A stretch of 64,000 nucleotides of DNA, from NCBI RefSeq assembly GCF_017744135.1, contig NZ_JAGHQU010000007.1:1-64000 (forward strand). The letters are read 5' to 3'. Shown piece after piece: positions 13,229 to 17,791 of the stretch (within the stretch, counting starts at the first letter, position 1; each line of letters starts with the position of its first letter). The position numbers and the translations under genes are program-made. The stretch comes from Endozoicomonas sp. G2_2 (GTDB taxonomy: Bacteria; Pseudomonadota; Gammaproteobacteria; Nevskiales; Salinisphaeraceae). The notes under the pieces are model-generated. The model was not told where the DNA came from, searched no databases, and worked only from the letters and a program-made list of their open reading frames with translations.

Positions 13229-13531
13229 ATGTTCATCGCCATGAACCGTTTCAAGATCAAGCCGGGCTGCGAGGACGAATTCCTTGCCATCTGGCGCGAA
13301 CGTGACACCCATTTGCAGGACGTGCCGGGCTTCAAGCAGTTCAACCTGCTGCACGGCGCGACCAACGACGAATACACGCTGTTCGCCTCGCATTCGGAAT
13401 GGGAATCGCGCGCCGCGTTCGAGGCCTGGACCCAGTCGGAGGCGTTTCGCAAGGCGCACGCCAATGCCGGCGCGCGCAAGGATATCTATCTCGGCCCGCC
13501 CCAGTTCGAGGGGTTCGAGGTCAAGATCTAG
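13229..13531 (+). CDS. Antibiotic biosynthesis monooxygenase / IsdG-like heme-degrading protein
   Basis: A 100-residue ferredoxin-like dimeric alpha-beta barrel protein. Asn6, Trp67 and His77 fall almost exactly where the catalytic Asn-Trp-His triad of IsdG/IsdI heme monooxygenases lies (Asn7, Trp67, His77 in the staphylococcal enzyme, from memory). Other support is FLAIWRERDTHL, PGFKQFNLL and the FRKAHANAGARKD ending. Heme ring opening for iron use is therefore a reasonable prediction, but no heme transport genes flank it. The gene overlaps the converging ligase gene by four bases at the stops. Confidence 0.8.
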   Translation: MFIAMNRFKIKPGCEDEFLAIWRERDTHLQDVPGFKQFNLLHGATNDEYTLFASHSEWESRAAFEAWTQSEAFRKAHANAGARKDIYLGPPQFEGFEVKI

Positions 13532-14430
13532 CGATCGGGCACGCGATCGACCTCGAGCGGCGGGCCGCCCGGGCGTCGGCGCAGAAAACGCGCGAAGCGG
13601 GGCAGGCCGGTAACGGTCTCGCCGTTGTAGCGGTAGGTGATCCACGAGCCGATCGGTGGCGGGCTGGCGCGCTGTGCGTCGGTGAAACCGCTGCCGATGG
13701 CGAATTCGCGTCCATCCGGTGTACGCACATCGAGCGAACCCATCAGGCCTTCAAGCCGACCCTGGCCCGGATTATGGCCGATAACCCGCGCCTCGGCGTC
13801 GTCGTAGGGCTTGAGCTTGAGCAGGTCGTCGCTGCGTCCGGCGCGGTATTTCGCGGCCCCGCGATGCAGGATCAGCCCCTCTCCGCCGCGCGCGATCACC
13901 TGCGCCATGGCTGTATCCAGTGCGGTCGTGTCGTCGATGCGGAACTGGCCGACGGCCGTCACCCAGGGCTGGTCGATCGCGGCGACGACGTGGCGGATCG
14001 CCGGCACGCGCGCATCGAACGGGCCGGGATGATCCGGCAGGTCGAACACGCGATAGCGCACGTCGCGCCAGTCGGCATCGTGCGGCTCATGCGAGCGCAC
14101 GATGCCGGATACGCGGGCGAACTCGCCGTAACCGGTCCACAGTTCGCCATCCATCGCATGGTCGGGCCAGCCCGCCGTGAACCATGCAGGCGTCTGGATG
14201 ACCAGACCGCCGCGCGTGATCAGGCGCTGGCCGTCCCAGTAGCCGCGCACGCCATCGTATTTCTCGCTGACCCAGTAATCGGCCAGATCGATGCCGCCCC
14301 GGTAGGTTTCGGCCAGGGTCACGGACGGTGCCGGCGCAGCGCGCGCAACCCCTGAAAACGCGAGCGCGAGAATCGCGAGTCGGGCCAGCGCGCGCAGCGC
14401 GGGCGTTCGATGCGAAAAGGGTCGGGTCAT
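13528..14430 (-). CDS. Exported ATP-dependent DNA ligase (Lig E type)
   Basis: A 300-residue minimal ATP-dependent DNA ligase with an N-terminal signal (hydrophobic LARLAILALAFSGVARA, cleavage near residue 31). The adenylated lysine is Lys57 in SEKYDGVRGYWDG (motif I). MDGELW (motif III), EGLILHR (IV) and LLKLKPYDDAEARVIGH (V) follow, then a short OB domain. The size and lack of extra domains match Lig E, a periplasmic enzyme linked to biofilm eDNA or DNA uptake. The ATG at 14430 is preceded by GGAGCG; a GTG four codons upstream is possible. Confidence 0.9.
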   Translation of the reverse strand: MTRPFSHRTPALRALARLAILALAFSGVARAAPAPSVTLAETYRGGIDLADYWVSEKYDGVRGYWDGQRLITRGGLVIQTPAWFTAGWPDHAMDGELWTGYGEFARVSGIVRSHEPHDADWRDVRYRVFDLPDHPGPFDARVPAIRHVVAAIDQPWVTAVGQFRIDDTTALDTAMAQVIARGGEGLILHRGAAKYRAGRSDDLLKLKPYDDAEARVIGHNPGQGRLEGLMGSLDVRTPDGREFAIGSGFTDAQRASPPPIGSWITYRYNGETVTGLPRFARFLRRRPGGPPLEVDRVPDR

Positions 14431-14539
14431 GAGGCGCTCCACCGTCGACGCGGGGTCGACGCTAGCGCAACCGCGGTGTGCGCATCCAATGAGCGTTTCG
14501 GGCGCTAGAGTGGAGCGGCGCTCCTAACGGTTCGAAATC

Positions 14540-15433
14540 ATGCCGCGACGAACGATGCCTCATGCCCGCTTCGGTTACCGCGCGATCACTGATCGCCCGG
14601 ACTTCGACTGGCCGGAGCGCCGCCGTCTGGCGGTGTACATCGGCCTGAATCTCGAGCATTTCGATTTCGGTGGCGGCCACGGCGCGACGCTCGCCGACGG
14701 TCGCCGCGAGCCCGACGTACTCAACTATGCCTGGCGCGAATACGGCAACCGGGTTGGCACATGGCGGATGCTTTCGATGTTCGAATCGCTCGGGCTGCCG
14801 GTCGGTCTGATCGTGAACAGCAGCATCGTCGATCACTGCCCGGAACTGGTCGCCGCGTATCGAGCGCGATTGTCCACGGAGCTGATCGCGCACGGGCGCA
14901 CCAACAGTGAGTCGCAGAACGAATTCGACGAAGCCGGGGAAGCGGTGCTGATCGATGAATCCCGGACGCGTCTGGCCGAGGCCTTCGGTGAAACGCCGCA
15001 GGGCTGGCTCGGACCGTGGATCGCACAAAGCCACCTCACCCCCGATCTGCTGGCCGAGTCGGGGTTTGCCTATCATCTGGACTGGTGTCACGACGACCAG
15101 CCGACCTGGATGGCGACGCGCGGCGGCGGGCGAATCCTGTCGGTGCCGTATCCGCAGGAGATCAACGACATCCCGGCGATCGCGGCCCACCATATCGACT
15201 ACCGGGAGTTCGCGGTGCGCATCATCGACCAGTTCGACGAGATGCTCGAACAGTCGCGCGAACAGCCGTTGGTGATGGGCATCGCGCTGCATCCCTATAT
15301 CACCGGCCAGCCGTTCCGGCTGCGTGTGCTGCGCCAGGCGCTGGCGCATGTCGCCGCGCACCGCGACGCGGTGTGGCTGACCACGCCGGGCGCGATCGCG
15401 CGACACTACGCCGCGCGCTTTGCCGCCGATTGA
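14540..15433 (+). CDS. Polysaccharide deacetylase family protein
   Basis: A 297-residue NodB-fold hydrolase without a signal peptide. It resembles the cytosolic PuuE-like/peptidoglycan-type polysaccharide deacetylases that act on small amides: RLAVYIGLNLEHFDFG at 29-44, YGNRVGTWRMLSMFE near 68, an IVDHCPELV block, and an ELIAHGRTNSE block near 114 carrying a metal-type His. The NodB Asp-Asp pair is not present in canonical form (NLEHFDFG instead). Allantoinase-like or N-formyl hydrolase activity is possible, but the substrate is undetermined. It is divergent from the ligase gene and convergent with the proline racemase gene. Confidence 0.78.
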   Translation: MPRRTMPHARFGYRAITDRPDFDWPERRRLAVYIGLNLEHFDFGGGHGATLADGRREPDVLNYAWREYGNRVGTWRMLSMFESLGLPVGLIVNSSIVDHCPELVAAYRARLSTELIAHGRTNSESQNEFDEAGEAVLIDESRTRLAEAFGETPQGWLGPWIAQSHLTPDLLAESGFAYHLDWCHDDQPTWMATRGGGRILSVPYPQEINDIPAIAAHHIDYREFAVRIIDQFDEMLEQSREQPLVMGIALHPYITGQPFRLRVLRQALAHVAAHRDAVWLTTPGAIARHYAARFAAD

Positions 15434-15441
15434 AGCAGTTT

Positions 15442-16488
15442 TCAGCCGCTCGGCGCGTTGCTCGTGAGGATGGGGCGCAGATGTGTGCTGTCGACCAGCG
15501 GATCGTCGGGGTTGACCACGATCTGCGAGCGCGCCAGGACATAGCTCTTGCCGGTGATGGTGTTTTCCACCACATCGTGCGGGCCGCCTCTGGAGACGCG
15601 CGTGAACGAGCCGATGAAGCTGGAGCCCCGCAGCGAGACGGTTTCGAGCTTGTCGCCCGGCTGCATGCGGCCTTCATGGTGCATCAGCGCCATGCGCGCG
15701 GACGTGCCGGTCCCGGTGGTGCTGCGACAGATCACGCCGGGATGGACATAGGTCGTCGAGCGCGAACGATAGTAATCGCCGGCCACCTGCTCGACCGGGC
15801 CCATGAAATGCAGGAACGGCAGCGGCCCGACATCGCCCAGCGAGTAGTGCGAGAAACCGCGTTCCTCGACGATGGCCTCCACGATCGCCTGCGCGCAGTG
15901 GGCCAGTCGGGATTCCTCGTCGCGCGTGAGTTCGAAACCGAGTTCGGTGGCGTCCACCAGCGCATAGAAGCCGCCGCTATAGGCCACGCTGTAGTTCACG
16001 TCGCCGATCAGCGGAACGTGAATCGTGGCCCGGTAGGTATCGATGTAGCTGGGCAGGCCTTCGCAGGTAATGGCTTCGACCACGCCGTTCTCGACGTTGG
16101 CCTCGACCTGGACCAGCCCGGCCGGCGACTCGAGCACGAAATGCTGGCGGCCTTCGCGCTTGGGAATCATGCCGCTTTCGAGCAGCGCGGTCGCCGTGCA
16201 GATGGTGTTGGAACCCGAATAGATCGGGTAACCCATCACTTCCATGATGATGTAACCCGCCTGCGCCTGGGGATCTGTCGGCGGTACGATCAGATCCACC
16301 GACATCTCGGGAATGCCGTAGGGCTCTTCGAGCAGCAGGGTACGCAGCCCGTCGGCGTCGTCGCGCAGGTATTCCATCTGGCGGCGCACGGTATCGCCCG
16401 GCAGAGCGTTGATCCCGCTGACCACGATCCGGCTGACATCGCCGCCGGCGTGGGTATCGATGATCTGAAAGGACAGTTCCTGGCTCAT
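15442..16488 (-). CDS. Proline racemase superfamily protein, Ser/Thr active site
   Basis: A 348-residue protein of the proline racemase/hydroxyproline epimerase superfamily. The DTHAGGD opening (11-17) is intact. At the first catalytic site the usual Cys of the (M/P)CGH motif is Ser91 in YSGSNTI. At the second, the Cys of RSPCGTG is Thr258 in RSTTGTG. Racemases and epimerases need both Cys; a Thr at the second site is typical of trans-3-hydroxy-L-proline dehydratases, so dehydration rather than racemisation is expected. No hydroxyproline catabolic genes flank it. It lies 145 bases downstream of the oxidoreductase gene, possibly in one transcript. Confidence 0.85.
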   Translation of the reverse strand: MSQELSFQIIDTHAGGDVSRIVVSGINALPGDTVRRQMEYLRDDADGLRTLLLEEPYGIPEMSVDLIVPPTDPQAQAGYIIMEVMGYPIYSGSNTICTATALLESGMIPKREGRQHFVLESPAGLVQVEANVENGVVEAITCEGLPSYIDTYRATIHVPLIGDVNYSVAYSGGFYALVDATELGFELTRDEESRLAHCAQAIVEAIVEERGFSHYSLGDVGPLPFLHFMGPVEQVAGDYYRSRSTTYVHPGVICRSTTGTGTSARMALMHHEGRMQPGDKLETVSLRGSSFIGSFTRVSRGGPHDVVENTITGKSYVLARSQIVVNPDDPLVDSTHLRPILTSNAPSG

Positions 16489-16633: not shown

Positions 16634-17791
16634 CTACGGGGCGAGCGCGTGCGGTGCACCGTGGGCGTCCCACTGGGCATCGGGCACGATCACGATCTTG
16701 CCGAGATAATTGCTCGAGCGATCCATGAAATAACGCTCGGCCTCGTGCAGTTCGGAGAGCTTGAACGCGGCGTGCAGCACCGGCCTGAGATCGCCCGAGC
16801 GAATCCAGGCGATCAGCTGTTCGGCTTCTTCGCGGGTGCCGTGCGACACCCCGAAGATCTGGACCTGATAGAGATAGATGCGCGTCCACAGCATTTCGCT
16901 GACGTTGCCGCCGCTGGCGCCGGCGATGCTCAGGCGCGGGTAGGTGCGCCGACGCGTCATGTCGAAGATCATCGTGTCGATAAAGCGATGCGTCATGTCG
17001 CCGCCGACCAGGTCCATCACGGCATCGAAGGGTTCGTCGTGGGTGGCGTCGCGCACCTTGGCGGTGAAATCGTCCATGTCGGCGCGGTCGAACACCGCTT
17101 CCGCGCCGAGTGCGCGCAGGGCATCGGCCTTGTCCGGTGTGCTCAGCGCGTAGGGAATGGCGCCGATCACCCGGCACAGCTGGATCAACGCCGTGCCCAC
17201 GCCGCCGCTGGCGCCGGTCACCAGCACGCGCTCGCCGGCCTTCACGCCGGCCGCGGTAAGCATGTGATAACCGGTCTGGTAGGAGCACATGCCCATGCTG
17301 GCGAGTTCCGCGTCGGACAGGGCGTCGTTGTCCACGGCGTGGAACTGGTCGGCCGGCACCGCCACATATTCGGCATAGCCGCCGTCGGCGCCGTGGCCGT
17401 AGTAGTCGGGGGTAAGATTGATGTCGCGGCGTGCGTCGGCGTAGATGTTGAAATCGAGCAGGCCGCGCTCGCCGATACGCGTCGTCGCCACGCCGTCGCC
17501 CACGGCCGCCACGCGCCCGACCACGTCGGCGCCCTGGATACGCGGGAAGGTGAGCGTGGGCGAACCGCCGATCGCGAACGAGGTCACGTCGTCTGCATCC
17601 TTGGTCGGGTACAGCCCTTCACGCGCCTTGCGGTCGGTGTTGTTCTTGGCCGTGGCCGTCACCTGGACCAGCACCTCACCGGCGGCGGCGCACGGTCTGG
17701 GCACATTCGAATCGTAGACCAGCTTGTCGATGCCGCCATGCCCGGTCAGCAGCATGGCCGCCATGGTGTCGGGTAGCGTCTGGGTTGCCAT
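16634..17791 (-). CDS. Quinone oxidoreductase-like (MDR) dehydrogenase
   Basis: A 385-residue medium-chain reductase without the Zn-binding Cys/His set. The GroES-like half holds GADVVGRVAAVGDGV near residue 88, and the Rossmann half has VTGASGGVGTALIQL near 193-207, the AxxGxxG variant typical of NADPH quinone or crotonyl-CoA reductases. AGGAGCGG sits before the ATG. The substrate is unknown. Together with the proline racemase homologue downstream it may form a two-gene unit, but the 145-base gap keeps this tentative. Confidence 0.82.
   Translation of the reverse strand: MATQTLPDTMAAMLLTGHGGIDKLVYDSNVPRPCAAAGEVLVQVTATAKNNTDRKAREGLYPTKDADDVTSFAIGGSPTLTFPRIQGADVVGRVAAVGDGVATTRIGERGLLDFNIYADARRDINLTPDYYGHGADGGYAEYVAVPADQFHAVDNDALSDAELASMGMCSYQTGYHMLTAAGVKAGERVLVTGASGGVGTALIQLCRVIGAIPYALSTPDKADALRALGAEAVFDRADMDDFTAKVRDATHDEPFDAVMDLVGGDMTHRFIDTMIFDMTRRRTYPRLSIAGASGGNVSEMLWTRIYLYQVQIFGVSHGTREEAEQLIAWIRSGDLRPVLHAAFKLSELHEAERYFMDRSSNYLGKIVIVPDAQWDAHGAPHALAP

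Follow-up and report, generated by a model that had tools for sequence, protein, structure and literature searches.

A racemase-fold protein of a salt-loving host that may be an enzyme of compatible-solute metabolism

The window analysed here is a 64,000-nucleotide stretch at the start of contig NZ_JAGHQU010000007.1 of Endozoicomonas sp. G2_2, and its minus strand carries a homologue of proline racemase in an open reading frame with an ATG start (Table 1). The gene is real. Its product scores 292.3 bits against the Pro_racemase profile PF05544 (cut-off 27), which places it in the proline racemase superfamily, and a search of the genome returned this gene as the single match to the family. Alignment with solved members covers the two catalytic positions with residues 88-96 (PIYSGSNTI) and 249-264 (HPGVICRSTTGTGTSA). 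An earlier note on this DNA had read Ser91 and Thr258 at these positions and SGSN where CGHG would be expected, and both readings are borne out by the alignment. The two neighbours that it named, a quinone-oxidoreductase-like gene of the MDR superfamily and a PuuE-like polysaccharide deacetylase gene, are also present. A gene for a small ATP-dependent DNA ligase (372 bits to PRK09125, cut-off 200) lies near the operon.

Table 1 Features of the window and of related loci (locus handles precede coordinates outside the window)
Feature	Position	Strand	Basis or source
Proline-racemase-superfamily protein, Cys254 subfamily, 348 aa	15442..16488	-	ORF and translation; PF05544; clade
Ser91 codon, first catalytic position, SGSN motif	16216..16218	-	Alignment to 4k7g, 4k8l, and others
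Asn94 codon, SGSN motif	16207-16209	-	Alignment
Thr258 codon, second catalytic position	15715..15717	-	Alignment
Cys254 codon, replaces the prolyl-nitrogen-binding Asp of DRSP	15727..15729	-	Alignment; role of the Asp from parts of PMC4113996 and PMC4364671
MDR-superfamily oxidoreductase, 385 aa, constant upstream partner	16634..17791	-	Pfam/NCBIfam; adjacency; best PDB 4j6f
PuuE-like polysaccharide deacetylase, convergent, non-conserved neighbour	14540..15433	+	Profile; 2/80 loci
Small ATP-dependent DNA ligase	13528-14442	-	PRK09125
AMDase-family protein gene, beside MDR	L165:8026-8787	-	Halomonadaceae genome
AMDase-family protein gene, beside MDR	L139:7214-7987	+	Nitratireductor
AMDase-family protein gene, near MDR-racemase pair	L094:3370-4143	+	Litchfieldella
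Fused E1 alpha-beta 2-oxoacid dehydrogenase-like gene, near MDR	L094:9158-11407	-	Halomonadaceae locus
Fused E1 alpha-beta 2-oxoacid dehydrogenase-like gene, near MDR	L165:4417-6732	+	Halomonadaceae locus
Racemase homologue with Cys254, Ala258, and SGTN	L130:9956-11023		S. americanum plasmid

The Ser/Thr pair, which the earlier note regarded as unusual, and SGSN, which it took for an altered motif, turn out to be ordinary. The three closest solved structures in the alignment, 4k8l, 1tm0, and 4k7g, all have the Ser/Thr pair, SGSN, and DRSPTGTG. Among them, B9K4G4 (4K7G) is described in the eLife 2014 paper as a trans-3-hydroxyproline dehydratase with Ser90 and Thr256, in which the Ser is positioned by Asn93, and the Asn motif is proposed there to be common to all superfamily members with a catalytic Ser (PMC4113996). 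Members with Ser followed by Thr are termed type II T3LHypD (type II T3HypD here) in a part of PMC4364671. The window protein shares this signature, Ser then Thr with SGSN, and neither the pair nor the motif was retained as the anomaly, being already known from the solved dehydratases and from that portion of PMC4113996.

Judged from the aligned residues, the unusual feature is Cys254, which the earlier note did not mention. In the solved members, two residues coordinate the prolyl nitrogen, Asp in DRSP and His in CGH, and in Ser-type members the His becomes Ser while the Asp is retained, according to the passages on these ligands in PMC4113996. In the window protein, the Asp of DRSP is replaced by Cys254 and the Pro by Thr257, a departure from type II T3HypD at the Asp. 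Both Ser91 and Cys254 occur in 99 of the 100 rows of a first alignment, in which the query gene was included three times and a few other genomes twice. The sole row without Cys254 (L019) is a 4-hydroxyproline-epimerase-type paralogue with CGHG and DRSPCG in a genome of the same genus (G013). Since the Ser91/Cys254 combination recurs in these 99 rows and in main-group relatives down to 63% identity, it is not a chance occurrence. In a 51-row comparison, the Asp is retained in the T3HypD, Ser/Cys, 4HypE/epimerase, Thermococcus, and other PDB reference rows.

Further positions differ as well. By our own mapping of alignment positions to the ligand sites 1, 4, and 5 given in a part of PMC4364671, sites 1 and 5 are changed relative to the T3HypD clade throughout the Cys254 clade (His63 to Ser and Ile248 to Val), and position 224 (site 4) is mostly Pro, with the Ser of the dehydratases in 2 of 21 clade rows. 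Tyr is present at 87, 90, and 247 in all 21 clade rows and at 148 and 175 in 95% when set against the T3HypD rows; three of these five positions are also Tyr in some other reference rows.

The Cys254 rows form one clade of 22 with support of 100/99, apart from a 22-row T3HypD clade, and this clade persists when the motif columns are dropped (98) and when two long-branch rows are removed (97). Identity to the window protein is 63-84% in the main group, 51-53% in three paralogue-type rows, and 39% in L130; all other rows of the comparison set have at most 37%. The phylogeny against characterised dehydratases that the earlier note proposed as a check thus does not group the window protein with them. 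The profile NF047722 of NCBIfam (T3LHypDht) gives the same picture, with 265 bits for the window protein against a curated cut-off of 550. Among ten further proteins, five of the seven outside the Cys254 clade pass this cut-off (594-651 bits), and none of the three inside it does. The AlphaFold model of the window protein (48 rows; mean pLDDT 92.5, pTM 0.90) has a predicted two-domain DapF-type fold, and its best structural match is 4k7g (Foldseek TM 0.90, rmsd 1.6; also Z 46.9, rmsd 1.9).

The window protein could in principle be an ordinary type II trans-3-hydroxy-L-proline dehydratase with a drifted pocket, the MDR being a further kind of pyrroline-2-carboxylate reductase. Its closest solved relative in both fold and sequence is indeed the dehydratase 4k7g (34-35% identity), with which it shares the Ser/Thr pair and SGSN, the dehydratase Ser is kept at position 224 in two clade rows, and a reductase partner fits the known pathway logic as laid out in parts of PMC4113996. 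However, the separate clade, the loss of the nitrogen-binding Asp throughout it, the changes at mapped sites 1 and 5, and the low NF047722 scores of the window protein and of three other Cys254 proteins make this unlikely.

Gene order points to a fixed partner. In all 80 of the loci compared (the best 80 of 268 confirmed loci), the immediate upstream neighbour, in the same orientation, is the same MDR gene. The two matches end 12-187 nt apart in these best 80 of 268 loci, most commonly 12, and the gap in the window is 145 nt; on a Tsukamurella plasmid the two genes overlap by 11 nt. Within the family of the window's host, the same 16 of 17 genomes have both genes and the 17th has neither. Two racemase paralogues of 52-53% identity have no MDR within about 9 kb on either side. 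Neighbour clustering found no third conserved gene in most of the best 80 of 268 loci, the next cluster being present in 20 of the 80. Thus, of the two neighbours that the earlier note had named, the MDR is a constant partner and the deacetylase, found in 2 of the best 80 of 268 loci and retained in some near relatives, is incidental; the latter was rejected as a functional partner. The neighbour gene types in the part of the eLife 2014 study on gene context are OCD, MLD2, DAAO, and DHDPS (PMC4113996). The suggestion in the earlier note that the substrate may differ gains support from the profile scores, the separate clade, and the constant MDR reductase neighbour.

The best PDB relative of the MDR is 4j6f. 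The MDR has NNTD in place of the usual zinc-site Cys and is presumably zinc-free. Two Halomonadaceae loci have a fused E1 alpha-beta 2-oxoacid dehydrogenase-like gene near the MDR (Table 1). The subfamily and its two-gene operon are well supported, and from them we infer a chemistry and a substrate.

A match to the proline racemase superfamily (PRS) is present in 96 of 398 phylum genomes, and the Cys254 type with at least 65% identity in seven of the 398 (one broken by stops), with a 52% relative in one more. Among Halomonadaceae, 129 of 201 genomes have the racemase gene at E 1e-75 or better, a count that includes one broken gene (G066) and another (G486) whose match starts at residue 69. At the G066 locus (L182), the racemase is broken by stops and the adjoining MDR is free of them.

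Tentatively, we propose that the pair is a PLP-free dehydratase or isomerase and an MDR reductase acting on an acid derived from a compatible solute, with 5-hydroxyectoine or a derivative as the leading substrate. Ser91 would act as a single base, taking the alpha proton of a beta-hydroxylated carboxylate whose carboxylate group would be held by two helix N-termini. Water would then be lost from C-beta, as in type II T3HypD, or a double bond or centre would be isomerised, after which the MDR would reduce a C=C or C=N bond of the product with NAD(P)H. The Asp may have given way to Cys254 because the substrate lacks a free secondary ammonium there. Both 5-hydroxyectoine and its ring-opened N-acetyl derivative, hydroxy-alpha-ADABA, would be ring or acyl analogues of 3-hydroxyproline. 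The net reaction would convert hydroxyectoine (or the derivative) to ectoine (or its derivative) without PLP, the job proposed for EutABC. According to PMC13188858, EutD produces hydroxy-alpha-ADABA by opening hydroxyectoine, and removal of the hydroxyl is the role proposed for eutABC.

Loss of the Asp may instead reflect a substrate with a fully substituted nitrogen, such as an N-methylated proline, a betaine, or another quaternary-ammonium acid; there would be no N-H to bind, and the Asp would therefore be lost and tyrosines gained. The tyrosines of the clade at 87, 90, 247, 148, and 175 might serve such a substrate. The nearest deep relative, L130 (39%, Cys at 254), sits among betaine-type genes, including those for a choline/betaine ABC transporter and an FAD-GcvT demethylase-like protein, near betaine-aldehyde-dehydrogenase-like and GbdR-like genes, and the paralogue L018 adjoins a ProP-like transporter. 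However, neighbour clustering of the best 80 of 268 loci found no such gene recurring near the window's own group, L130 has a long branch in the tree and Ala in place of Thr258, and the 4jci or 6r76 rows share Tyr at 87, 148, or 175, which is therefore not special to the clade. We consider this reading quite unlikely. L130 itself is a racemase homologue within a betaine/choline-type catabolic cluster of an S. americanum plasmid; its relative from an S. meliloti plasmid (72%) appears split between two frames.

The link of the operon to ectoine comes from relatives of the MDR. Searches of plasmids (tblastn with the MDR) returned a Paracoccus yeei member with 66% identity, its context being that of one of four records, and rhizobial members with about 44-48%. 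In the ectoine clusters of P. yeei, R. lentis, Phyllobacterium, R. acidisoli, and S. meliloti, the MDR closely follows the aminotransferase gene, and in S. americanum it is near the same ectoine-cluster genes (tblastn on an unannotated record). Six of the seven examined plasmid regions with an MDR and no racemase are ectoine clusters, the exception being Nitratireductor. In the phylum census, 20 of 398 genomes have the MDR. It adjoins a Cys254 racemase in seven of them (one racemase being broken), belongs to an ectoine cluster in 11, and has neither context in two (G399, where it is beside an AMDase-family gene, and G086, where it is alone). Racemase and ectoine contexts both occur on both sides of the deepest branch of the MDR tree, in which P. 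yeei is a long branch flagged by the program. The 11 MDR-bearing ectoine clusters are of the ehu/enuR/asnC/ssd/atf type, and since these rhizobial clusters all belong to one family, they represent few independent events. Most ectoine clusters with an MDR relative also show eutA in the stretch covered. PMC5924519 reports that ectoine induces an oxidoreductase of S. meliloti, listed there with an aminotransferase and a semialdehyde dehydrogenase, and that the function of ectoine-cluster adh genes is undefined; by position, this oxidoreductase would be the MDR relative.

In some genomes, the MDR adjoins a gene of a different family. The MDR-adjacent genes of G399 and Nitratireductor encode proteins that are 44% identical to each other and belong to the arylmalonate decarboxylase (AMDase) family, distantly related to EutA, which a part of PMC3187862 likens to arylmalonate decarboxylases. 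Neither is a true EutA (23% identity, measured across 151 columns; scores of 48 and 57 bits where the cut-off is 318), and both have Cys at the first site only, with Asp at the position of EutA's second-site Cys. Litchfieldella anticariensis has a 71% AMDase-like relative about 2.7 kb before the MDR and also has a Cys254 gene in its genome; the regions of the relatives in R. jaguaris, Klebsiella, and Salipiger have no MDR-like annotated gene adjoining. These arrangements fit a swap of one PLP-free proton-transfer enzyme for another beside the MDR and do not prove it.

The two MDRs whose neighbour belongs instead to the Asp/Glu-racemase/arylmalonate decarboxylase superfamily might also speak for a racemase or epimerase in which the second base has moved from 258 to Cys254, giving a Ser91/Cys254 pair, as would the fixation of Cys254 while 258 is Thr or, in L130, Ala. 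Such an enzyme would need two acid/base residues on opposite faces, and the window protein has Thr258 at the second site. The Asp at 254 is described in the pertinent part of PMC4113996 as a nitrogen ligand and not as an opposite-face base, and both AMDase-like partners have Asp in place of EutA's second Cys; a racemase of this kind is very improbable. In its boldest form, the hydroxyectoine proposal would make the operon a PLP-free hydroxyectoine/hydroxy-ADABA dehydratase with its MDR, forming a second, EutABC-independent route to ectoine in halophilic gammaproteobacteria. Cys254 would have adapted a proline-binding fold to a substrate without an ammonium group, and the MDR would elsewhere be teamed with an unrelated AMDase-type enzyme for the same step. 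We regard this extended scheme as rather doubtful.

Several results bear against the ectoine link or weaken it. None of the 80 racemase loci (the best 80 of 268; DNA up to 8 kb on each side) contains an ectoine-catabolic gene with at least 40% identity to the reference proteins, which came from P. yeei or S. meliloti, and the link therefore runs only via the MDR family (44-66% identity). Relatives of the MDR, and not the racemase gene, are what lies inside ehu/ueh-eut-doe clusters. Since ectoine could still offer an Asp its amidinium N-H, loss of the Asp does not point uniquely to ectoine. In the family of the window's host, all 17 genomes have EctC over its cut-off, which speaks for the link. 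Of the 16 genomes there that bear the racemase, 13 were searched for EctD, and 8 of these exceed the cut-off; the ectoine hydrolase DoeA/EutD reaches its cut-off in none of the 14 genomes covered, among them the window's own. A dependence of the racemase on EctD is weakened: EctD passes its cut-off in 13 of the 18 genomes whose intact racemase has at least 65% identity and in 5 of 36 others, in a sample that is taxonomically structured.

On the favourable side, 127 of the 129 Halomonadaceae genomes with the racemase have DoeA over its cut-off, and the racemase is present in 2 of 16 DoeA-less genomes, a contrast that is also genus-structured. The 185 DoeA-positive genomes comprise 60 with racemase and EutB, 67 with the racemase only, 48 with EutB only, and 10 with neither, EutB being scored at E 1e-95 or better with all hits (324-406 bits) below the curated cut-off. 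The genome-level odds ratio for racemase and EutB is 0.19. When the genes are shuffled within genera, however, the anticorrelation disappears (10 genomes with neither observed, 10.2 expected). By genus majority, seven genera have both genes, seven EutB only, two the racemase only, and two neither, and in seven genera both genes are present in half or more of the members. The odds ratio is genus structure, and the case for racemase and EutB as alternatives in this family is weakened. Growth of H. elongata on ectoine persisted in the absence of eutB or eutC (PMC3187862), a result that does not bear on hydroxyectoine. Among the open-access papers searched, none describes, by title and beginning of abstract, the racemase-MDR pair or the racemase with ectoine catabolism, and the word "racemase" is absent from the main text of a C. 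salexigens transcriptome study and of the report on the H. elongata genome.

The window protein may nonetheless be a candidate enzyme of compatible-solute metabolism in a salt-loving host. Parts of the eLife 2014 paper state that the majority of the superfamily carries out only three reactions, all on prolines (PMC4113996). With its uniform loss of the nitrogen ligand, its single reductase partner, and its occurrence both in Halomonadaceae (129 of 201) and in the family of the window's host (16 of 17 genomes), the Cys254 clade is a strong candidate for a fourth. The database names trans-3-hydroxyproline dehydratase and proline racemase would mislead for Cys254 proteins. The hydroxyectoine step is described as biochemically unevaluated in a portion of PMC5924519; if the ectoine link holds, this step would become directly testable, as would the undefined role of the adh gene in ectoine clusters.

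Compared with known systems, the window protein resembles type II T3HypD (B9K4G4/4K7G, NF047722) in fold, the Ser/Thr pair, SGSN, and about 35% identity, and differs from it in Cys254, Thr257, its separate clade, a score of half the curated value, and the MDR partner. With 4-hydroxyproline 2-epimerase and proline racemase (4jci, 7pb3), it shares superfamily and fold (27% identity to 4jci), but it lacks both catalytic Cys residues and the His and Asp nitrogen ligands of those enzymes. The ectoine-inducible oxidoreductase of S. meliloti and the adh products of ectoine clusters belong to the same MDR family as the operon partner (44-51% for the rhizobial members), whereas their genes have no racemase-fold neighbour in the stretches covered. 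EutABC, the proposed hydroxyectoine-processing enzymes (TIGR02990/02991), are of unrelated protein families, EutB being assigned to the threonine dehydratase family and possibly PLP-dependent according to a part of PMC5924519, and their genes are not co-located with the Cys254 gene. Yet the two systems may perform the same metabolic job, and a relative of the MDR recurs in ectoine clusters.
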